Source: Acidobacteriota bacterium
GTDB lineage: Bacteria > Acidobacteriota > Terriglobia > UBA7540
Direction of reading: 5' to 3'
Assembly (NCBI GenBank): GCA_902812415.1
Contig: CADDZJ010000006.1
Location: forward strand, 1-64,000
Length of the DNA: 64,000 nucleotides
Positions 2,093 through 13,100 of the stretch are shown here, piece by piece (position 1 is the stretch's first letter; the number at the start of each line of letters is the position of its first letter). The translations under genes and the position numbers were made by a program. The notes under the pieces are model-generated. The model was given only the letters and a program-made list of their open reading frames with translations, searched no databases and was not told where the DNA came from.

Positions 2093-3613
2093 TTACGTAA
2101 TCCTGAACGCAAAGGCGTCATCGCAGGGCCTCCGGCGCGGAGTCTCAATGATCAGAGCATCCGGCGCCTGCCGCCATTTCAGAGGTTCGCTTTCACCAAC
2201 CAGCCGCACATCGGAAATCTTTGCCGGGGCATAGGATGACCTCGAGCCTAGCGACTGGATTCTGGCCTCGCCTTCCGGCCACGCGAGAAAGATGGCATAG
2301 ATGGCTTCTCTTTTGGCCGTAAACCGGATATCTTGCGGAGTGAATTTCGGTGGCGCGGCTTTGCGCGCGCTGAAAGAGCCGGCCTGGAACCTGCCAGGGC
2401 CTTCGCTCCATACTTTCCAGGGCCGCGTTCCATAAATGGCCTCGCCGTTCACGCCAATCCACCGGCCAACCTGATGAAGCAGTTCGATGGCCTTCTCAGG
2501 GATCGTTCCGTCAGACCTGGGGCCGACGTTCAGCAGCAGGTTGCCATTCTTGCTCACAATGTCCACGAATTCGTGAATGATCTCGGAAGGGGAGCTATAA
2601 ACGTCATCTTCGATGTAACCCCAGGACTTCCTGCTGATGGAGTTTTCCGCCTGCCAGGGCCGCTCGCGGATAGCCTCCTCGGTTCCGCGTTCAATATCCA
2701 TAACCGCAGCGCCGGGCGGGAAACCATTCCCCTTGTGAGTGAGCACGACTTCACTTCCCCAGGCTTCCGCGCTGTTGTAGAAATAAGCGGCAAGCTCTCT
2801 TCGATAGGGTTCAAATTCCGGGGCCTCGACGCCCCACTCAAGCCATAACAGATCCGGCTGATACTGGTTGACGATTTCGATGGTTCTGGCGTACCAATCC
2901 TGAAGAAACGCGGGAGGCGCCGTCTGCAAAATTTCTCCCGGCCGGTTATCGATCGGAGAAGTTGGCGGGTGCGGCTTCCCGTAGAGGCCCGAATAACGAG
3001 GATTGACGGTGTCGAAATCTTTTTCATACGTATACCAGGACCAATGCCAATTGCGGTGCGTTGAAACGCCGAATTTCAACCGCTGATTTCGAACCTCGCG
3101 CTCGAGTTCGCCGACCACATCCCGCCGCGGCCCCATCCTGGCCGCGCACCATTCCGTCAGCGAGCAGTCGTACATCGGAAAGCCGTCGCAATGCTCGCCG
3201 ACCGGCACGATGTACTTCGCGCCGATCTTTCTGAATAAATCCACCCATTCTTCCGGCTTCCATCGCTCGGCGCGGAACAGCGGAATGAAGTCTTTGTAGC
3301 CGAACAGGGATTGCGGACCCCAGTGCGCTTTGTGCCATTCAAACACCGGGCTTTCCCAGCGATACATCAGCCGCGGATACCACTCGGTCAAATGCGCGGG
3401 CACGGAATAAACGCCCCAGTGCAGGAAGATTCCGAACTTCGCATCGCGGAACCAATCCGGCGGCTGATAGCGTGAAAGAGAATCCCAGGCGGGCTTGTAC
3501 TTCCCAGGGAAAGGCGTCGAGGTTGTCCGCGCGAATTGCGAACTCAAGGCGAACGCGGCGCTGGCCGTTGGGACCTGCTTAAGAAATTGTCGGCGCGAAA
3601 AACGTTGGGTCAT
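2093..3613 (-). CDS. GH29-like alpha-L-fucosidase, Tat-exported
   Basis: This 506-residue protein has a twin-arginine signal (FSRRQFLKQ, residues 5-13) followed by a GH29 (beta/alpha)8 domain. Recognisable pieces are WFRDAKFGIFLHWGVYS (54-70), VGEHCDGF (138-145), NGNLLLNVGP and a C-terminal beta region. GH29 enzymes release alpha-linked L-fucose through an Asp nucleophile in a DxLWxD-type strand. Here that strand reads PDLLWLEWG, so the nucleophile position (E259) is Glu rather than Asp. The start directly abuts the stop of the upstream gene (TAAATG), indicating one transcript with the GH43-like gene. The fold assignment is firm; fucose specificity is not. Confidence 0.85.
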   Translation of the reverse strand: MTQRFSRRQFLKQVPTASAAFALSSQFARTTSTPFPGKYKPAWDSLSRYQPPDWFRDAKFGIFLHWGVYSVPAHLTEWYPRLMYRWESPVFEWHKAHWGPQSLFGYKDFIPLFRAERWKPEEWVDLFRKIGAKYIVPVGEHCDGFPMYDCSLTEWCAARMGPRRDVVGELEREVRNQRLKFGVSTHRNWHWSWYTYEKDFDTVNPRYSGLYGKPHPPTSPIDNRPGEILQTAPPAFLQDWYARTIEIVNQYQPDLLWLEWGVEAPEFEPYRRELAAYFYNSAEAWGSEVVLTHKGNGFPPGAAVMDIERGTEEAIRERPWQAENSISRKSWGYIEDDVYSSPSEIIHEFVDIVSKNGNLLLNVGPRSDGTIPEKAIELLHQVGRWIGVNGEAIYGTRPWKVWSEGPGRFQAGSFSARKAAPPKFTPQDIRFTAKREAIYAIFLAWPEGEARIQSLGSRSSYAPAKISDVRLVGESEPLKWRQAPDALIIETPRRRPCDDAFAFRIT

Positions 3614-4648
3614 TTAAATGTTCCACGGGCGAGAGGCGGCCACGGAGATGCCGCGGCCAAACTCCTTGGATACGGCGCAATAAAAGTGAAACAAAGCGCC
3701 TCGATGAAAGATGATCGAAGGCTTGTGAGCGAACATCGAGTCGATGGAGCCTTTAGGCCCTACATCAATCAGGACTCCGGCGCACTTGCGCACTTTAACT
3801 AAGTCTGGTGAAAGCGCCAGCAGGTCGCGGGCGATGAATTTTGGGCCCAGGCCGTAGTAAAACACCGCCCAGCCTTTGCGATACTTGAGCACACAAGGGT
3901 CGCTTGCGAAATATTCGTCGTCGCTCCCGGGCGGCCCGTTTCTCAGGATGGGATTCGCCGGATTTCGCGTCCACGTTTTGAGGTCGCGCGAAGTGGCGAC
4001 TCCGGTTTGTTCCCGCCAATGAACCGGGCGGTTCTTCGCGTTGTAAAAAATGTGATAAAGTCCGCGCTCTTCAAGAATGCAGGCCTTGTAAAGGCCGCCG
4101 CGCTCCCACTCAGCCCCGTCCACGGGCCGGAGACAAGGCGGCTCAATTTCCCAGTTCCTCAAGTTGTGACTCCAGCACAGGCCAATCACCGCCGGGCCCG
4201 CTTCGTACCCTGGCTTTGGATAAGCATGGTAGACGCCCAGATAGCGGCCACGGACGCGCTTCAACTTGCCGGCCCCGAAGACATTGTTTTCACGCAAAAT
4301 CCACGTGAGTGCGGCGTTGTAGCGGATGATCGGCGAGGAAGCGTCCCGTTTCAGGATGACCCCCTCACGCTGCCAATGGATGAGGTCATGGGATGAGGCA
4401 AGGCCCGTCTGGTAGCCGATGCCGTCAAAGCCCACATAAGTCATGTAAAAACGGCGTCCGTGCCTGAAAACAAAAGGAACGTCGGCGCCCTTTTCGTCGA
4501 ATGAGCCGGGTTCCTTCGAGGGGCCGATCAGAAGCTTTTCCAGCTTGTAGGGAGTCTTCAAATCGTCGGGAATGGCAAGCGGGTGCGCGGCCATGGCGCT
4601 TGGCCCAACGGCCAGGACACTCGCCAGAAATTCTCGTCGTGAAATCAT
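3614..4648 (-). CDS. GH43/GH117/GH130-like five-bladed propeller glycosidase, Tat-exported
   Basis: This 344-residue protein begins ISRREFLASVLA, a twin-arginine signal ending near AMAAHP. The mature part has repeated propeller strands such as DVPFVFRHGRRFYMTYVGFDG-type blades and SHDLIHWQREG and SRDLKTWTRNP, typical of the GH43/GH117/GH130 superfamily. Asp in ADVPFV is a plausible catalytic base. The sequence alone does not fix the family or substrate. It lies immediately upstream of the GH29-like gene with no gap and about 130 bases downstream of the RuBisCO-like gene, so the three probably form one glycan-use operon, although a palindromic repeat sits in that gap. Confidence 0.75.
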   Translation of the reverse strand: MISRREFLASVLAVGPSAMAAHPLAIPDDLKTPYKLEKLLIGPSKEPGSFDEKGADVPFVFRHGRRFYMTYVGFDGIGYQTGLASSHDLIHWQREGVILKRDASSPIIRYNAALTWILRENNVFGAGKLKRVRGRYLGVYHAYPKPGYEAGPAVIGLCWSHNLRNWEIEPPCLRPVDGAEWERGGLYKACILEERGLYHIFYNAKNRPVHWREQTGVATSRDLKTWTRNPANPILRNGPPGSDDEYFASDPCVLKYRKGWAVFYYGLGPKFIARDLLALSPDLVKVRKCAGVLIDVGPKGSIDSMFAHKPSIIFHRGALFHFYCAVSKEFGRGISVAASRPWNI

Positions 4649-4686
4649 CGTCCGCGCGCTTCAGGAGTTTGTGTGATAACCGCGAT

Positions 4687-4750
4687 TGTAGCGGCGGCGT
4701 CCTCACCGCTGACCCCGATTTATTTCGACGATAAGGAGATCGCCGCTACA
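4687..4750. repeat. Palindromic repeat, TGTAGCGGCG family
   Basis: The segment starts TGTAGCGGCGG and ends ATCGCCGCTACA, giving inverted ends that pair over about 10 bases. Related copies with the same ends lie at 6297-6365, 7231-7299 and 11656-11747. It sits between the RuBisCO-like gene and the GH43-like gene and could act as a transcriptional attenuator or mRNA stabiliser; this is inference. Confidence 0.6.
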
Positions 4751-4780
4751 GCGCGAATCCGGGCTTTTCATACGCGCTCT

Positions 4781-6073
4781 TTAGGTCCCGTCGCGGGCTG
4801 CTGCGCCCGGAGAAGACAAGCGGCCGAATTTCTCAATCGCTTCGCGCAACTCTGGATGGTTGCAGGCGTAAGTTTCAAGCGGCACGCCCGAAAGGGCCGC
4901 TTCCCACGCCTGGTGAATCGCCTTGAGACCGGCGGCTGGCCCGCCCGGGTGAGCCATGATGCCGCCGCCGGCCAGATAGAGAAGATCGACCGTTCCGGTA
5001 AGCCGGTAAGTCTCCGGCGCCTGCCCGCCCCACTGTCCGGAAGAAATCACCGGCATGATGGGATAGCCTCCGAGCAGCGGCTGAAGGCAGGCCCTGATGG
5101 ATTTGACCACCGATTCGTCCGATTCCCAGAACTTGTTCTTTAATCCGTTCACGTGGATGTGGTCCACCCCCGCCAGCCGCCAGAACTTCTGATAGGCTGC
5201 AAAATCCATCCCCAGCGAAGGGCATCGGGTGAGCATGCCCCATCCGTTGCGGTGGCCATGAATGGGAAGCTGGCAACGCCGCCGCAAGTGTGAAATCCCC
5301 ACCAGTCCCACGCTGTTAAGGCTTGCCATCACACACGTTCCTCCGGCCTTGAGGACGGCGTCATGATGGCGCAGCATGGCTTCCAGATCATCCGTGATGT
5401 TGAACGCGTACATCACCTTCTTGCCGGTTTCGTCCGCGATGGCGTTGATCTCGCGCATCACGGCTTCCACTCTTTTTTCGAGCGGCGAATGCGGCGGGTT
5501 GGCCATGAGCTCGTCATCTTTGATGAAGTCAATTCCCGCCCGCGCAAGCTTCCGAGCAAGTTCCGCCGTTTGTTCCGGCCTGAGACCTACGCTGGGTTTG
5601 ACGATGGTTCCGACCAGCGGCCGCTCCCAGACCCCTGCCAGCTTGCGGGTTCCCTCAATTCCAAATTGCGGACCCGGATATCGCTCGCGGAAAGCGTCGG
5701 GAAACTCGACATCCATCAGTCTCAAACCCGATATTTCGCTTAACTCAAACAGGTTCCCGGCCACGGTTGAAAGCATGGTCGGCAGGTTGGTTCCCACGTT
5801 TTCAAGCGGAAAAGAGATGACGACCTTCGCCGTTTTGTATTCCGCCTGGCCTGAGCGCGCCGGGCCGCGCGAACCCGGCAGGCTCGGAGCGCCCCTTGCG
5901 CCGAGAGTCTCGATGCTTTCAATCTGCGCGCGGTGGCGGGCGCGAAGCTCGCTCGTTTCCCCAGGCACACGGACAAACGTGCCACAGGATTGTTCCCCTG
6001 CGATCACTTCCGCCGCATGCTCGACGGAATGCGGCGTTTCAACCCGATAAGTTGCCAGGATGCGGTCTCTCAT
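4781..6073 (-). CDS. RuBisCO-like protein (form IV)
   Basis: This 430-residue cytosolic protein follows the RuBisCO large-subunit fold. The N-terminal domain (1-150) is followed by the barrel motifs GTIVKPSVGL (K159), DFIKDDELMANPP (K185-D186-D187-E188, matching the carbamylated Lys and metal-binding acids), HGHRNGWG, DHIHVNGLKNKFWES in the loop-6 region, VISSGQWGG and GGGIMAHPGGPAAG. KPS replaces the KPK of true RuBisCO and the loop-6 environment differs, so CO2 fixation is unlikely. Form IV homologues include enolases and the OiaX-type enzymes of apionate breakdown (family knowledge). Its place beside glycosidases suggests a step in catabolism of an unusual sugar acid; the reaction is unknown. 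A TTCC-N7-GGAA palindrome lies 130 bases upstream. Confidence 0.85.
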   Translation of the reverse strand: MRDRILATYRVETPHSVEHAAEVIAGEQSCGTFVRVPGETSELRARHRAQIESIETLGARGAPSLPGSRGPARSGQAEYKTAKVVISFPLENVGTNLPTMLSTVAGNLFELSEISGLRLMDVEFPDAFRERYPGPQFGIEGTRKLAGVWERPLVGTIVKPSVGLRPEQTAELARKLARAGIDFIKDDELMANPPHSPLEKRVEAVMREINAIADETGKKVMYAFNITDDLEAMLRHHDAVLKAGGTCVMASLNSVGLVGISHLRRRCQLPIHGHRNGWGMLTRCPSLGMDFAAYQKFWRLAGVDHIHVNGLKNKFWESDESVVKSIRACLQPLLGGYPIMPVISSGQWGGQAPETYRLTGTVDLLYLAGGGIMAHPGGPAAGLKAIHQAWEAALSGVPLETYACNHPELREAIEKFGRLSSPGAAARDGT

Positions 6074-6382: not shown

Positions 6383-6979
6383 TCACCCAGACTCCTCCAT
6401 CGCATTCGTCATTTCCCCAGCCGGAAGGGCCAATCGCCCCAGCAGCCACAGTGCGTAAAGTTCAGCCAGGCTCCCGATCGGAATCACCCTCGCCGTCAGC
6501 CGCCGTCGCCGCCTTCGTCCGAAGACAAACCGCAGCGCGCGGCCTCGCGCATTGCCTTCAATCCGAATCGGGACTCGCAAGTTATCTTCCGAACTCCCGC
6601 CTTTTCCAGCACATCGTCGGTTCGTTTTCATCCGCTCGACGGCCTTCCAGCCGTAGCACCACACCTGGCGCGCCAGCCGCTCCGTGGTCTGCTGCTCGCG
6701 CTTCCAGTCCACCTGGAAGTGGAGGCTGATGCGGCTGACGATCCCCCAGTAGACTTGCAGTTGTTCGCGCTCGCCCGCCCGCTCCAGGGTGCGGGTCAAC
6801 TTGCGGGCATAGCGCCCGTGCTTGAGAGCGTTCAGGGAGGAACGGGCCTTGCCGCGCGCCGTGCGGGGGCCGGTGGATTTGCGGGCGTTGGCGCGGCAGG
6901 CGGCCAGGCGCGCCGGCGTAAGCTTGGGAGATCGGCATAAACGGGGTTTGGGTGGTCGGTTGCAACCCTTCGTCTTCAT
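6383..6979 (-). CDS. Basic acidobacterial multicopy-type hypothetical protein (STGPRT..GKARSSLNALKHG motif)
   Basis: This 198-residue protein has the N-terminal motif NARKSTGPRTARGKARSSLN followed by ALKHG, flanked by an alpha-helical region rich in Arg and Lys. The reading frame stays open upstream to 7171, but that part translates the tandem repeat, so the ATG at 6979 (MKTKGCNRPPK) is chosen. Proteins with this motif occur in many copies per genome in Acidobacteriota and some Planctomycetes (family knowledge); their function is unknown to me. The motif looks like a nucleic-acid-binding basic segment, and the C-terminal half has RRRRRR. It lies between the two arms of the carbohydrate island and has no evident link to them. 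Confidence 0.6.
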   Translation of the reverse strand: MKTKGCNRPPKPRLCRSPKLTPARLAACRANARKSTGPRTARGKARSSLNALKHGRYARKLTRTLERAGEREQLQVYWGIVSRISLHFQVDWKREQQTTERLARQVWCYGWKAVERMKTNRRCAGKGGSSEDNLRVPIRIEGNARGRALRFVFGRRRRRRLTARVIPIGSLAELYALWLLGRLALPAGEMTNAMEESG

Positions 6980-7057
6980 AGCGGTTTCAGGATAACAGAG
7001 CGGGCGGCGCGGATGGAGACAAATGAGACGTTTGAGACACTTTTTCGCCGTTTCAGC

Positions 7058-7177
7058 AACGTGGCCTGGGCATCCTGCCCATGCGCACGGCCAGGATGGC
7101 CGTGTCACGAGCGGGGGAAGAACGTGGCCTGGGCATCCTGCCCATGCGCACGGCCAGGATGGCCGTGTCACGAGCGG
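7058..7177. repeat. Two-copy tandem repeat (63-bp period) of a REP-like palindrome
   Basis: Copy 1 starts at 7058 and copy 2 at 7121, nearly identical except at the last few bases. Each unit holds GGGCATCCTGCCC and ACGGCCAGGATGGCCGT hairpins. A related unit (TGGCACGGGCGTCCCGCCCG and GGCCGAGGCGGCCGTGCCAC) is at 10622-10670. Similar dispersed palindromes are typical of REP-type elements. Confidence 0.7.
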
Positions 7178-7230
7178 GTAGCGCTACCGGCGTTGATGAG
7201 TGAAAAGTAAGAAGTTGTGAAAAATTTCGC

Positions 7231-7391: not shown

Positions 7392-8540
7392 CTATTGCGT
7401 GGCCGTGATTTTCAGTCCGCTTGCAACCCTGAGCTTCTCATCCCGGTTATCGAGCGGGTAGATCAAATCCACGTTCTTGGGCGTGATGAGCTGATGCTTC
7501 ACGAATACGGCGGAAGAAACCGGTTTCTTCTGGAGAATATCCAGCGCCAGGGGAATAAGCTGGTCTCCGTAGCGTTCCGGGAAATACGCGACCGATCCCA
7601 CAAGCCGGGTTCGCGGGCGGCGCAGTTCATTGCGGGCTTCTGGAATGGCGTTGTGTCCCATCACCGCGCACAACTGGATGGCGCCCGCTTCTTCAAACGC
7701 CCTCAGAGTGGCCAGCGCGCAGATGTCATTCACGGCGCCAATCAGCGTCTGTTCAGGGTGAGTGCGGCGCAGGTAACGCCGCACCGCCTCGAGATTCTGT
7801 TCAAATCCGCCTTTGCCGTTCAGGTGGAAAATCGGCTTCTTATCGATCGCGGGGAGCGTTTCCTTGAGCCCGGCCACCATCCCGCTGATCCGCAACTGGG
7901 GAAGAGGCCCGGCAATGGGCAGTTCCAGAAGCAGAACCTGACCCACCGCGCCTTCCCAATTGTGTTTCGCCCACTGCCCCAGCGCGCGCCCGCCGATAAG
8001 CCCGGCCTGGTAATTATTTGCGCCAAAATAAGTCGCTCCGGGATGAGGAATTTCGATGGCGATCACCGGAATCTTCGCTTCAAGGAACTTGGCGGCAATG
8101 GTGGGCGCCACGCGTTCGTAGGTCTGAAATTCGAGGACCAGATCCACGCGCTCCCGGATCAGCAGATCGGCATTCCGAAGAGCTTCCTTGGCGCTGTATT
8201 TGTTGTTGACGACGATCAGGTGGATGTTCTCCCGCGCCGCCGCGCGCCGAAGGCTTTCGGTGACTTCTCTGCAAAACTCCGAGTCGGTTTGAACAGCGAA
8301 GCCCAGGCGGACAGCCGGGTGAGAAAGCAATTTCACCTGACAGCGGTAAATTCCTTTGCCGACCCGCTCCAGGATGCCGCCCCTCACGAGGCTCTGAAGC
8401 AGGCGGAAGGCTGTGGTCTTTCTCAGGCGGGTGCGTTCCACCATGTCGGACAATGACAGCACCTCGCCTTCGTACTTGAAGGCCTTCAGGATGCCGCAGG
8501 CTTTGATGACGGATTTTACTTCTCCCGGATCTCGGATCAT
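7392..8540 (-). CDS. IclR-type HTH fused to a periplasmic-binding-protein-like sensor domain (regulator)
   Basis: This 382-residue protein has two parts. Residues about 8-70 form an IclR-like winged helix (VIKACGILKAF, LSLSDMVERTRLRKTTAFRL, LQSLVRGGILERVGKGIYR). Residues about 78-370 form a type I periplasmic-binding-protein fold (FAVQTDSEFCREV, DLLIRERVDLVLEFQ, IPVIAIEIPHPGATYFGANN, GAVNDICALATLRAFEEAG, GSVAYFPERYGDQLIPLALD), as in LacI sensors. Normal IclR proteins carry a GAF-like sensor instead. It has no signal peptide, so it acts in the cytoplasm and should sense a sugar. It sits divergent to the GH127 operon with two TTCC-N7-GGAA palindromes in the shared gap. It most likely represses or activates both arms of the carbohydrate island. 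Confidence 0.85.
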   Translation of the reverse strand: MIRDPGEVKSVIKACGILKAFKYEGEVLSLSDMVERTRLRKTTAFRLLQSLVRGGILERVGKGIYRCQVKLLSHPAVRLGFAVQTDSEFCREVTESLRRAAARENIHLIVVNNKYSAKEALRNADLLIRERVDLVLEFQTYERVAPTIAAKFLEAKIPVIAIEIPHPGATYFGANNYQAGLIGGRALGQWAKHNWEGAVGQVLLLELPIAGPLPQLRISGMVAGLKETLPAIDKKPIFHLNGKGGFEQNLEAVRRYLRRTHPEQTLIGAVNDICALATLRAFEEAGAIQLCAVMGHNAIPEARNELRRPRTRLVGSVAYFPERYGDQLIPLALDILQKKPVSSAVFVKHQLITPKNVDLIYPLDNRDEKLRVASGLKITATQ

Positions 8541-8712: not shown

Positions 8713-10527
8713 ATGAAACAGCGTGCTGTCAGGTTCTCGCGCCGAAACTTCCTGCAAGGGGTGGCCGCTGCTGCGGCCATGTCCGGCTTCTCTTCGCGGC
8801 GCGCTGCGCAGGCGTCCTCGAACCGGGAAAAGTTGTACGAGCTTGACTATTCCGCCGTAAAAATCACGGCCGGCCCGCTTCGGGATCAATTCGATCGAAT
8901 CCATACCGCTTATCTCGCGCTTGATAACAACCGGCTGCTGAAAGTTTATCGCCAGCGAGCGGGATTGCCGGCTCCGGGTGAAGACATGGGAGGCTGGTAC
9001 GACGCGGATGGATTTGTGCCAGGCCACAGTCTGGGACAATACATTTCCGGTCTCGCCCGCTTCGCGCGCGCCACGGGGAATAAAGCAACCTACGATAAAG
9101 TCGCGCAGTTGGTTAATGGGTTTGCTGAAACTCTCGGGCCGGGCGGCTATCCTTACGCCAGCGCCAGGGCCTCCACCACCTGGCCGTGCTACATCCTTGA
9201 CAAGTTTGAGATAGGACTTCTGGATGCCTACCGGCTGGGCAGGCTTTCTTCAGCGCGAGACCTGCTCGCGCGAGTCATCCGGGGCGCCATGCCTTCTCTT
9301 CCTCCCAAGGTTCATGATCGGGTGGGCGTCAAACATCCGCCTTATGATGAACCCTATATCCTGCCGGAGAATCTATTCAACTCCTTTGAGGTTACGGGAG
9401 AAAAAGAATTTCTGGCGATGGCGCGAAAGTATCTTTTAAACAAAGAATACTTTGATCCGCTGGCGCAAGGCATCAACGCGCTTCCAGGGAAGCATGCTTA
9501 CAGTCACGTGATGGCTCTAAGTTCTGCGGCCAAAACGTTTCGGGTGGATGGGGAGCCTCGATATCTTGAGGCGCTTCGCAACGCCTGGGACATGCTCGAA
9601 AAAACGCAGGAGTACCGCTCGGGCGGCTGGGGCCCCAATGAAACTTTTGTGGAGCCGGACGAGGGAAAGCTGGGCGAAAGCCTGACATCGACCCACGCGC
9701 ACTTTGAGACGCCGTGCGGCTGTTATGCGCATTTCAAACTGGCGCGCTATCTGCTTTGTTTCACCGGCGAAGCTCGATACGGCGATGGCCTCGAGCGCCT
9801 ACTCTACAACACAGTTCTGGGGGCGAAAGACCCCAGCGGCGACGGGCGCTTCTTCTACTACTCGGATTATCACCCTTCAGCGCAGAAGTCTTACTATCCG
9901 CAGAAATGGCCCTGCTGCTCGGGAACACTGGTGCAGGATGTGGCGGATTACCTCGTGGGAATCTATTTCCCAAGCCATGACGGGATTTGCGTGAACCTGT
10001 TTGTTCCCTCTGAAGCGGACGTCTCTTTCGGGGGCGTTCCCGTCAGGATCATTCAAACCACCCGATATCCGCAAGACGGCGAGATCGAGCTTCGCATCGA
10101 AACTCCGGCGCCCACCACGTTCACAGTCTACGCGCGGATGCCAGGCTGGCTTGAATCGCCGGCAACCGTATCCGTCAACGGCAAGCCGCTCGACCTCAAG
10201 ACTGAACGCAACACCTTCGCCGCTCTCCGGCGCCGGTGGAAGCGAAATGATACGATCCAGATTAAATTTCCGCTCCGTCTTCGAGCCGAAGCGGTCGACC
10301 TGCAACATCCAAAGACCGTTGCCATCATGTGGGGTCCGGTGATGCTGGCGGCCGTTAACCCACCGCCGGGGCTTTTCGCTGATCCGCTTCCCATTCCGCA
10401 AGGGCTTCGGTCGGTTCCTTACAATCCGATGACGTTTGAGATGGATCAGGCTGGGAAACGATTGCGCTTCGCGCCGTTCTTTTCAGTGGGCGATGAAGCT
10501 TACACGACCTATTTTCTTAAGACCTGA
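8713..10527 (+). CDS. GH127-family glycosidase (beta-L-arabinofuranosidase type), Tat-exported
   Basis: This 604-residue protein has a twin-arginine signal (FSRRNFLQG, residues 8-16) and then an (alpha/alpha)6-barrel of the GH127 (DUF1680) family. Family enzymes use a zinc-bound Cys thiolate as nucleophile. Candidate ligands here are E332, C335 and C337 in HFETPCGCY and C401/C402 in KWPCCSGT. A C-terminal beta-sandwich follows (FTVYARMPGWLESPATVSVNG). Members act on beta-L-arabinofuranose, and some on other rhamnogalacturonan-II sugars (family knowledge). It is first gene of the plus-strand arm, downstream of an operator candidate. The start is the only ATG before the Tat motif; its ribosome site is weak. 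Confidence 0.85.
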   Translation: MKQRAVRFSRRNFLQGVAAAAAMSGFSSRRAAQASSNREKLYELDYSAVKITAGPLRDQFDRIHTAYLALDNNRLLKVYRQRAGLPAPGEDMGGWYDADGFVPGHSLGQYISGLARFARATGNKATYDKVAQLVNGFAETLGPGGYPYASARASTTWPCYILDKFEIGLLDAYRLGRLSSARDLLARVIRGAMPSLPPKVHDRVGVKHPPYDEPYILPENLFNSFEVTGEKEFLAMARKYLLNKEYFDPLAQGINALPGKHAYSHVMALSSAAKTFRVDGEPRYLEALRNAWDMLEKTQEYRSGGWGPNETFVEPDEGKLGESLTSTHAHFETPCGCYAHFKLARYLLCFTGEARYGDGLERLLYNTVLGAKDPSGDGRFFYYSDYHPSAQKSYYPQKWPCCSGTLVQDVADYLVGIYFPSHDGICVNLFVPSEADVSFGGVPVRIIQTTRYPQDGEIELRIETPAPTTFTVYARMPGWLESPATVSVNGKPLDLKTERNTFAALRRRWKRNDTIQIKFPLRLRAEAVDLQHPKTVAIMWGPVMLAAVNPPPGLFADPLPIPQGLRSVPYNPMTFEMDQAGKRLRFAPFFSVGDEAYTTYFLKT

Positions 10528-10863: not shown

Positions 10864-11556
10864 ATGTCCAAGACCCTGGCGATGCTCCACACCAGTCATG
10901 TGCTGATTCCAACATTTTCAGAATTGTGCGAAAAGAATCTTCCCAAGGTCGGCGCCTTCCATATGGTCGATGAAAGCCTGATCAAAAATACGATTGCGGC
11001 CGGGAAGCTGACGAAGGCGACGATCCGCCGCATGGCGACGCTTGTGGCTTCAGCCCGCGAAGGCGGCGCGGATGCGGTCATGGTAACCTGTTCCTCGATT
11101 GGTCCCGGAGTGAACGTCCTGCGGACGCTGTTTGATTTTCCCATTCTCCGCATCGACGAAGCCATGGCGGAGGAAGCGGTGCGTCGAGGCGCGCGGATTG
11201 GGGTGCTCGCGACGCTCAAAACCACTCTGGAACCCACCGTGGATTTGCTGCGTGAGACCGCTGCGGCCCAGTCTCGCGCTGTGAAGCTCGTTCCATGCCT
11301 GTGCGAAGGCGCCTTTGACGCCATCCTTTCCGGCGACGATCAGACGCACCATGAGATTGTGGCGGAGAATTTGAAGGACTTAATGCGGCGAGCCGATGTG
11401 GTGGTGTTGGCTCAGGCGTCGATGGCGGGCGTCATTCAGAAACTTCCCGCAAAATTGAGAAAAGTCCCGGTGCTGAGCAGCCCTGAGTTGGCCGTCAAGC
11501 GCGCCAGGGAAATCTTCTTGAACATGAAGCGGCGCTCAAACTCAGCCCACGGATGA
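10864..11556 (+). CDS. Aspartate/glutamate racemase-superfamily protein
   Basis: This 230-residue cytosolic protein has the two-domain Asp/Glu/hydantoin racemase fold. The first catalytic Cys is C76 in VMVTCSSIGPG, with DFPILRIDEAMAEEA and GARIGVLATLKTT around it. The usual second catalytic Cys is replaced: the matching segment reads VVLAQASMAGV (S186). A two-base racemase mechanism is therefore unlikely, and it may act as a decarboxylase, isomerase or lyase, as seen in other one-Cys members. The start ATG at 10864 has AAAGGTGA upstream. It sits between the GH127 and MFS genes, suggesting a step in the same sugar-acid pathway. Confidence 0.75.
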   Translation: MSKTLAMLHTSHVLIPTFSELCEKNLPKVGAFHMVDESLIKNTIAAGKLTKATIRRMATLVASAREGGADAVMVTCSSIGPGVNVLRTLFDFPILRIDEAMAEEAVRRGARIGVLATLKTTLEPTVDLLRETAAAQSRAVKLVPCLCEGAFDAILSGDDQTHHEIVAENLKDLMRRADVVVLAQASMAGVIQKLPAKLRKVPVLSSPELAVKRAREIFLNMKRRSNSAHG

Positions 11557-11828: not shown

Positions 11829-13100
11829 GTGACTTTCCTCCAGAACCCCGTGAAAAACCGTCATCTTGTCCTGTTATTTCTGGTCCTGCTTTCGGTCATC
11901 ACCTTTCTGGACCGGCTGTGCATCGCCGTCGCGGGGCCGCGAATGCAGCAGGAGCTTAAAATTTCACCGGCGCAATGGGGCTGGGTGCTGGGAGCTTTCG
12001 TTCTGGCGTATGGAATTTTTGAGATTCCCAGCGGTGGGCTGGGCGACCGGCTGGGCCAGCGCAAAGTCTTAACCCGGATCGCCCTGTGGTGGTCGGCGTT
12101 TACGTTTCTCACCGGGATGGCGTCGGGCATTGCGACGCTGATTGTAACCCAGTTTCTTTTTGGCGCGGGGGAAGCCGGCGCGTATCCCAATATTTCCGGA
12201 AGCATCAAACGCTGGTTTCCAGCCGAGGAATGCGCCCGCGCGCAAGGGTATGTCTGGAGCGCGAGCCGTCTCGGCGGCGCGCTTTCGCCTCTGCTGGTGG
12301 TGCCGATTCTGACCCTCTGGGGCTGGCGGACTTCATTCTGGATTTTTGGAGTCGCAGGTTTCCTGTGGGCTGGCGTCTGGTACTTCTGGTACAGAGACCC
12401 TGACATCGAATTGCCAGCCAGGAATCAGAGCGCATGGGAACTTGCTGATAAACCCTTTGCCGCTTCTCGACCCATTCACATTCCCTGGCGCAGCCTGTAT
12501 CGCAGTCGCGCCATCCGGTTCATTGTTGCGATGTACTTCTGCTACGCCTGGGGATCCTGGTTTTTCCTGTCGTGGTTTCCCACTTATCTCGTTCGCGGCC
12601 GCGGCCTGACCTTGAAGGAGATGGGCGTTTTTTCATCGTTTCCGTTTCTCCTGGGCGCCGCTGGAAATTTATTGGGCGGGTATCTGAGTGACTTCCTTGT
12701 CGAGCGGCATGGACTGAAGCTTGGCCGCCGGTTGATTGGGGCGACGGCTCTTGCGGCATCCGGTTTGCTCATCCTCATTACGGCCATGACTCATGGCAAG
12801 GCAGCCGGAGTGGCGCTTCTCGCGGCAGCATTTGGAATTATGGACCTGATGCTGCCTTCGGCATGGGCTGTTTGCCTGGACGTGGGAAGGGCGCATGCGG
12901 GCGCGGTCACCGGCGTGATGAACACCGCCGGGCTTTGCGGAGGCTTTGTCTGCACCCTGGTGTTCGGTTATGCGGTGAAAATGACGGGGAATTACAATCT
13001 GCCGCTCATTGCCATCGGAGTAATGCTGCTCGCGAGCACAGCATTGTTCTACCAGATCGATCCAACCCAGCAACTGCCTGAGAGCGACAAAACGCCGTGA
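11829..13100 (+). CDS. MFS transporter, anion:cation symporter (hexuronate/sugar-acid) type
   Basis: This 423-residue protein is predicted to have 12 membrane helices. The N-terminal half holds the ACS-family signatures ITFLDRLCIAVAGP, GDRLGQRKVLTRIALWW and FLFGAGEAGAYPNISGSI. The central loop is hydrophilic and the second half has GGYLSDFLVERHGLKLGRR. ACS members (GudP, ExuT, LgoT types) carry sugar acids with protons (family knowledge). The start is GTG at 11829. It is the last gene of the plus-strand arm and is the likely importer for the product of the exported glycosidases. Confidence 0.85.
   Translation: MTFLQNPVKNRHLVLLFLVLLSVITFLDRLCIAVAGPRMQQELKISPAQWGWVLGAFVLAYGIFEIPSGGLGDRLGQRKVLTRIALWWSAFTFLTGMASGIATLIVTQFLFGAGEAGAYPNISGSIKRWFPAEECARAQGYVWSASRLGGALSPLLVVPILTLWGWRTSFWIFGVAGFLWAGVWYFWYRDPDIELPARNQSAWELADKPFAASRPIHIPWRSLYRSRAIRFIVAMYFCYAWGSWFFLSWFPTYLVRGRGLTLKEMGVFSSFPFLLGAAGNLLGGYLSDFLVERHGLKLGRRLIGATALAASGLLILITAMTHGKAAGVALLAAAFGIMDLMLPSAWAVCLDVGRAHAGAVTGVMNTAGLCGGFVCTLVFGYAVKMTGNYNLPLIAIGVMLLASTALFYQIDPTQQLPESDKTP

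Follow-up and report, generated by a model that had tools for sequence, protein, structure and literature searches.

What does a RuBisCO-like protein do among exported glycosidases in an acidobacterial genome? In the window, by which we mean the whole 64,000-nucleotide stretch of DNA that was analyzed, positions 4781–6073 of the minus strand hold an intact gene for a 430-aa RuBisCO-like protein (RLP) of form IV and the OiaX-like family. The initial annotation had located this gene correctly, leaving its strand unstated, and had seen in it a new sugar-acid step. We suggest, with a probability of roughly 0.4, that the pathway in which this RLP acts is a route for aceric acid, a sugar of rhamnogalacturonan-II (RG-II). 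The host is a soil bacterium, and comparison with roughly 100 related clusters suggests that RLPs of this type act on branched sugars of plant pectin, probably with aceric acid among them. RG-II is among the most complex plant polysaccharides, and the question is how bacteria use aceric acid after its release.

Sequence and Family Placement of the RLP

Pfam recognizes both RuBisCO domains in the protein (RuBisCO_large, 7.3e-72; RuBisCO_large_N, 2.8e-11), and its best PDB match, 3nwr, covers the full length (8e-137). The metal-site residues K185, D187 and E188, within IKDDE, are all present, as had been claimed. At the position of the RuBisCO KPK motif the protein has K159-P160-S161, with the first lysine retained and the second replaced by serine. 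This serine had been noted earlier; it is there, but KPS is the usual state in the OiaX-like family and does not set the window RLP apart. Loop 6 had also been said to differ, which is not wholly the case, as K314 aligns with the loop-6 lysine in an alignment to the form III RuBisCO 6hun and N313-K314 is invariant among 11 aligned relatives. Apart from the C-terminal tail, the protein deviates at no near-invariant position of its family.

The best NCBIfam match is OiaX (NF042437) at 537 bits, which is below the cut-off of 700 (a plasmid OiaX reaches 786 bits), and strict OiaX membership was rejected on this score. The rubisco_III model gave 265 bits (cut-off, 497), and with KPS rather than KPK the protein does not qualify as a RuBisCO of forms I–III. 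Could it be the methionine-salvage enolase MtnW, with which it has the superfamily in common and nothing more? The RLP scored 158 bits on the MtnW model TIGR03332, against a cut-off of 513.6, and in a tree of 66 sequences the MtnW proteins formed a clade of their own (support 100/100), apart from a 60-row clade (100/100) that unites OiaX, the kinase-linked RLPs and the window RLP. The score and the tree exclude MtnW identity, which we regard as exceedingly improbable; the placement within MtnW that the initial annotation had named as speaking against its reading did not occur. Judged by its sequence, the RLP is a member of the OiaX-like family in the broad sense and not an MtnW. Four Bacillales genomes (Paenibacillus, Cohnella, Cytobacillus) have a true MtnW and an OiaX-like-family RLP together.

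Two Genomic Contexts among the Relatives

At least 555 relatives of the RLP were confirmed in the genome collection and 80 were kept, coming from many bacterial phyla and one archaeon. The genes of 95 loci were called, clustered and annotated, and were rechecked by tblastn with eight more plasmid loci. Contexts were counted over the 92 loci of at least 9 kb, which were collected by similarity to a query set holding both kinds of context, so that their proportions are not a census. In context A, the partners of the RLP are a DUF1537 kinase and ApnO, an enzyme of apionate metabolism (the PGDH_C neighbor, which we take to be the expected apionate oxidoisomerase). In context B, a transporter and a single-cysteine Asp/Glu-racemase-like protein join the RLP and the kinase, and RG-II glycosidases are usually present as well. 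The neighborhood comparison, which had been suggested earlier as a check, found the racemase-like gene at 45 of the 92 loci, ApnO at 30 and both at 2 (Fisher p = 5.6e-9). The two contexts are nearly exclusive, and context B recurs in many phyla.

The kinase beside the relatives' RLPs resembles OiaK (482 bits; cut-off, 700) and is present at all but five of the 92 loci (L033, L050, L058, L082 and the window), two of which end at a contig end. ApnO loci carry ABC transporters for sugars along with a Gfo/Idh dehydrogenase, and of the five clustered apiosidases four are found there. Racemase-type loci have carriers of the bile-acid-symporter type or of the MFS, and their glycosidases belong to GH127, GH106, GH137, GH29, GH42 and GH95, with GH28 in one annotated plasmid. 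A GH127-type glycosidase occurs at 26 of the 45 racemase-type loci compared with 1 of the 47 others (L050), and the RLP of that one locus falls within a racemase-type RLP clade. At L050, from Cytophagales, an aceric acid hydrolase adjoins the RLP, and there is no kinase or racemase-like gene nearby.

We found no convincing residues that mark context A versus context B across several clades. A single clade of all racemase-type RLPs was rejected (AU p = 2e-5), and therefore several switches between the ApnO and racemase contexts are needed. Such repeated switching fits a near-identical RLP reaction in both pathways.

Other neighborhoods were also observed. A block of fucose-isomerase-like, split transketolase and FGGY kinase genes, which presumably resembles the non-oxidative apiose pathway, lies whole or in part beside the RLP module at L038, L053, L056, L065, L066, L071, L088, L089, L091 and L094. 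A third context, at L112 and L118, has a VOC-family protein just before the RLP and kinase, together with TRAP transporters, and neither ApnO nor the racemase-like gene at the locus. On an archaeal plasmid (Haloterrigena, L018), an RLP of the OiaX-like family is accompanied by a DUF1537 kinase, an ApnO-like gene, an enolase and a pyruvate kinase, a neighborhood that would suit the product of an OiaT-type reaction, 3-phosphoglycerate.

What could the racemase-like protein of context B do? Its predicted model has the racemase fold (pLDDT 96). The first catalytic cysteine (TCSS) is retained in the family and the second is lost in all members, with LAQ[AG]S at the site where the hydantoin racemase 3qvj has LGCGG. 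The family is therefore not one of ordinary two-base racemases, and its residues make a one-base proton shuttle more likely than two-base racemization. We propose that the protein is an aldose–ketose isomerase, which is the least certain step of the route described below; to our knowledge, this reaction has yet to be established for the Asp/Glu racemase fold.

Aceric Acid Hydrolase Genes beside the RLP

In Bacteroidota, PVC bacteria and a Chloroflexota, a hydrolase of the BT1003 type often adjoins the RLP in context B. The Bacteroidota GH127 protein passes the aceric acid hydrolase model NF049879 (1145 bits; cut-off, 950) and scores 846 bits against the BT1003 structure 5mqo, and at eight loci its gene is co-directional with the RLP gene and 5–124 bp upstream of it. 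A GH106 rhamnosidase gene stands ahead of GH127 and the RLP in five loci, the order that RG-II side chain B would lead one to expect.

The hydrolase counts track relatedness, the link being concentrated in one RLP clade, and are to be read with this in mind: genome-wide, BT1003-type hydrolases (called at 830 bits or more) were found in 22 of 29 racemase-type genomes compared with 1 of 20 ApnO-type genomes (p = 9e-7), and, among 300 Sphingobacteriales genomes whose selection ignored the RLP (108 with the hydrolase, 35 with the RLP), in 34 of the 35 RLP genomes compared with 74 of the 265 others (p = 4e-16). The sole Sphingobacteriales RLP genome without the hydrolase (G688) has an RLP that diverges more than any other in the set. 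A test on phylogenetically independent pairs, which had 5 pairs only, was not significant.

In Acidobacteriota, the GH127 group that is nearer to GH146, and to which the window's GH127-like enzyme belongs, lies 15–195 bp upstream of the RLP at nine loci (two of them on one contig). In L099, the single acidobacterial type-B genome that was searched, there was no BT1003-type hydrolase, the best score being 498 bits, and the link to aceric acid in this phylum therefore rests on synteny.

The Cluster in the Window

Downstream of the RLP, on the same strand, lie genes for a GH137-like glycosidase of the beta-L-arabinofuranosidase type (3614–4648, minus strand; best PDB match 5mt2, 5e-31) and a GH29 alpha-L-fucosidase-like glycosidase (2093–3613, minus strand; Alpha_L_fucos, 6.7e-95). 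The N-terminal part of the former, a GH32/43/137-like enzyme, matches NF049877 at 123 bits; its homologues are present at about 10 RLP loci, and the GH29 and GH137-like genes are paired also in L026 and L028. On the other side, an unrelated 262-aa ORF (6383–7171) separates the RLP from a regulator gene (7392–8540, minus strand), which fuses an IclR-type HTH to a periplasmic-binding-protein-like sensor domain, is conserved in the acidobacterial versions of the module and is 62–67% identical to its homologues. The opposite strand holds a divergent transcription unit of a GH127/GH146-like glycosidase (8713–10527, plus), a 230-aa Asp/Glu-racemase-like protein (10864–11556, plus) and an MFS transporter (11829–13100, plus) of the anion:cation symporter (D-galactonate) group (TIGR00893, 241 bits; cut-off, 395), which we propose to be a sugar-acid importer. 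Farther along the minus strand, a subtilase (Peptidase_S8, 1017–1899) is apparently split over two frames, with its Asp and His motifs in ORF 1612–1899 and its Ser motif in ORF 1017–1820, which suggests a frameshift or an assembly error.

The glycosidases, the racemase-like enzyme and the sugar-acid-type transporter that the initial annotation had named as neighbors are thus the genes just listed. Its glycosidase operon, however, shrinks to RLP–GH137–GH29, since the racemase-like gene and the transporter belong to the divergent GH127 unit. Its description of the glycosidases as exported agrees with the Tat-like twin-arginine leader with which all three begin, as judged by eye; the NCBIfam TAT model gave only 9.6e-4, for the GH127-like enzyme.

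How closely does this cluster follow context B? The GH127-like enzyme belongs to the acidobacterial group and has E332, C335, C401 and C402, the zinc-cysteine site of GH127, in common with the BT1003-type group. It scored 93 bits on NF049879 (cut-off, 950) and is nearer to GH146 (best PDB match 5opj, 134 bits) than to BT1003 (5mqo, 69 bits), which rules it out as a BT1003 orthologue. The racemase-like protein has one catalytic cysteine (C76), with LAQAS at the second-cysteine site, departs from the near-invariant D163 and R189, and falls in the acidobacterial clade (100/99). The RLP is discordant with this neighbor. A position inside the acidobacterial type-B RLP clade was rejected (AU p = 4e-5); the RLP joins OiaX in a sub-clade (83/90) and is nearest to the RLPs of L031 and L035 (81/69), with 71% identity to that of L035, an apionate-type locus. 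The nearest RLPs (L031, L032, L035 and L036) have as a neighbor ApnO, a Gfo/Idh dehydrogenase or a conserved 645-aa gene that typifies ApnO loci.

No DUF1537 kinase (PF07005/PF17042) was found in the window or in the whole assembly, which is 96% complete. In relatives, the kinase gene directly follows the RLP gene; here, a 132-bp gap (4649–4780) leads to the GH137-like gene and contains one GTAGCGGCGA-type repeat element, and no kinase remnant was found around it. Apparent remnant matches proved to be alternative-frame readings of the RLP from over-extended kinase ORFs and were discarded. ApnO was also absent from the genome in a protein search whose positive controls elsewhere matched. Without the DUF1537 kinase, either the phosphorylation must fall to another kinase or the pathway has been changed or lost; several FGGY kinases are encoded in the genome, and in principle any one of them could take over.

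Seven copies of a GTAGCGGCGA / TCGCCGCTAC core (4740, 6298, 6355, 7232, 7289, 11657 and 11737), mostly paired and intergenic, lie around the cluster and flank the RLP gene. This REP-like element may have mediated a rearrangement of the cluster. Inside the 262-aa ORF, at ~7060–7180, a unit of roughly 55–60 bp (GTGGCCTGGGCATCCTGCCCATGCGCACGGCCAGGATGGCCGTGTCACGAGCG) occurs in two tandem copies.

The racemase-like, MFS, regulator, GH127-like, GH137-like and GH29 neighbors correspond to acidobacterial modules, and of the type-B features the window has the racemase-like gene and the GH127-type gene and lacks the DUF1537 kinase and an acidobacterial type-B RLP. What the window holds is a type-B cluster of derived form, either incomplete or altered. 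In the simplest reading, a foreign RLP took the place of the RLP–kinase pair that the ancestral cluster had, and the function of the kinase was relocated or lost. As the kinase is missing and the RLP lies outside the acidobacterial type-B clade, the substrate of this particular RLP is uncertain: it could be an aceric-derived or an apionate-derived phosphate, and a third option is that the function has been lost. The evidence is strong for the family, less so for this member of it. The new sugar-acid step of the initial annotation holds insofar as the RLP is not MtnW and is related to, yet distinct from, strict OiaX; the annotation had missed the recurrence of the module, the link to the aceric acid hydrolase and the absence of the kinase.

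A Proposed Route for Aceric Acid

Aceric acid is 3-C-carboxy-5-deoxy-L-xylose, a branched acid sugar of RG-II. The substrate of OiaX is HOOC-C(OH)(CH2OH)-CO-CH2-OPO3, and aceric acid, after an aldose-to-ketose shift, is the methyl homologue of 3-oxo-isoapionate. An isomerase, a kinase and an RLP would therefore make a short pathway. Beyond the apiose-type steps, the pathway would need one further enzyme, an isomerase; the racemase-like protein, the only additional enzyme that is conserved, may fill this place. For the combination of RLP, racemase-like protein and GH127, aceric acid is the most likely sugar.

In the proposed route, aceric acid would be freed by the exported glycosidases and imported by an MFS or bile-acid-symporter-type carrier. 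The single-cysteine racemase-like protein would convert the aldose to the ketose, HOOC-C(OH)(CHOH-CH3)-CO-CH2OH, whose terminal CH2OH would be phosphorylated by the DUF1537 kinase. The RLP, a putative metal-dependent 3-oxo sugar-acid 4-phosphate decarboxylase, would then strip the carboxyl via a metal-stabilized enediolate, with the same chemistry as OiaX, to leave a 5-deoxy-pentulose 1-phosphate. Compounds of this type are known substrates of fuculose- and rhamnulose-1-phosphate aldolases, and such an aldolase would yield dihydroxyacetone phosphate and acetaldehyde. The basis of the route is the family membership and conserved metal site of the RLP, its conserved neighborhood, the near exclusion of ApnO and the hydrolase link elsewhere, from which we infer the substrate, each reaction and its direction. 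We tentatively read the whole widespread RLP–kinase–racemase-like module, at somewhat less than even odds, as one for aceric acid catabolism, with the RLP as decarboxylase and the racemase-fold protein as isomerase, and the window as a variant in which the RLP has been replaced and the kinase is another one.

How well does this fit the window itself? The acidobacterial-clade racemase-like gene, the GH127-like, GH137-like and GH29 genes, the MFS transporter and the regulator, in a genome without ApnO, argue for aceric acid. On the other hand, the DUF1537 kinase is missing, the RLP is closest to apionate-type RLPs, the GH127-like enzyme is not close to BT1003 and D163 and R189 of the racemase-like protein are changed; furthermore, the hydrolase link is mainly that of one RLP clade, and no residues separate the contexts. 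Could the RLP instead be an apiose-pathway enzyme that decarboxylates (as OiaX) or splits (as OiaT) 3-oxo-isoapionate 4-phosphate, the apiose coming from RG-II or apiosides? RG-II does contain apiose, OiaX is the top NCBIfam match and the nearest RLPs are at ApnO-type loci, but the RLP is below the OiaX cut-off, the genome has neither ApnO nor the kinase, and the window neighbors are of the racemase type. At nine type-B loci, moreover, parts of a putative non-oxidative apiose block beside the module would make the RLP redundant for apiose. We consider this reading doubtful.

It is rather unlikely that the RLP performs the same beta-keto-acid decarboxylation on another acidic sugar of RG-II or plants, such as Dha or a branched or oxidized pentonate. 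The family also occurs near TRAP transporters, aldo/keto reductases and VOC proteins, so that its substrate range is probably wider, and GH127/GH146 enzymes free more than one sugar; however, it is the aceric acid hydrolase that recurs at type-B loci, and the clusters that we examined showed no consistent Dha-releasing enzyme. Finally, the cluster may be decaying or repurposed, with the kinase lost, the RLP foreign, the racemase-like protein altered and the pathway no longer running. The absent kinase, the discordant trees, the changed near-invariant positions, and the repeats and unrelated ORF between RLP and regulator are consistent with such decay, but the RLP is intact and keeps its near-invariant positions outside the C-terminal tail, and the remaining cluster genes are all intact, which makes decay improbable.

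In the literature that we searched by title and abstract, with most subscription papers and the primary D-apiose paper outside its scope, no catabolic route for aceric acid was described, and aceric acid was never joined with RuBisCO-like proteins. If true, the aceric acid route would give RuBisCO-like proteins, whose known functions are few, one more reaction, and would extend the Asp/Glu racemase fold to an activity new to it. As a candidate three-enzyme route with a substrate named for each step, it makes aceric acid use directly testable in culturable Pedobacter.

Comparison with Known Systems

The initial annotation had limited form IV roles to methionine salvage and apionate breakdown, but there are more: OiaX, OiaT, MtnW, a methylthio-xylulose isomerase and a reported hamamelose-pathway oxygenase (PMC6302742; PMC10176493). 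RLPs in D-apiose catabolism are mentioned with citation of Carter et al. 2018 (PMC6302742), and the hamamelose-pathway RLP oxygenase is reported in a reference of PMC10176493.

MtnW, the 2,3-diketo-5-methylthiopentyl-1-phosphate enolase, is of form IV like the window RLP but forms a separate clade, and its model scores the RLP far under the cut-off. The closest solved RLP structure by sequence, 3nwr, presumably from Burkholderia fungorum, was deposited without an assigned function. With BT1003, the GH127 aceric acid hydrolase of RG-II, the window has in common a GH127-type enzyme in the cluster, but a divergent one nearer to GH146; the true BT1003 type stands directly before the RLP in other phyla, not in the window. 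OiaT, the transcarboxylase/hydrolase RLP of D-apiose catabolism, has the superfamily and the substrate type in common with the window RLP, and some of the relatives encoded close to enolase and pyruvate kinase, as in Haloterrigena, may be OiaT. OiaX (3-oxo-isoapionate-4-phosphate decarboxylase) resembles the window RLP in fold, family and KDDE, at about 52% identity, and most relatives of that RLP in having a DUF1537-kinase partner. Unlike OiaX, the window RLP reaches 537 of the 700 bits and has no kinase and no ApnO, and it has a racemase-like gene instead.
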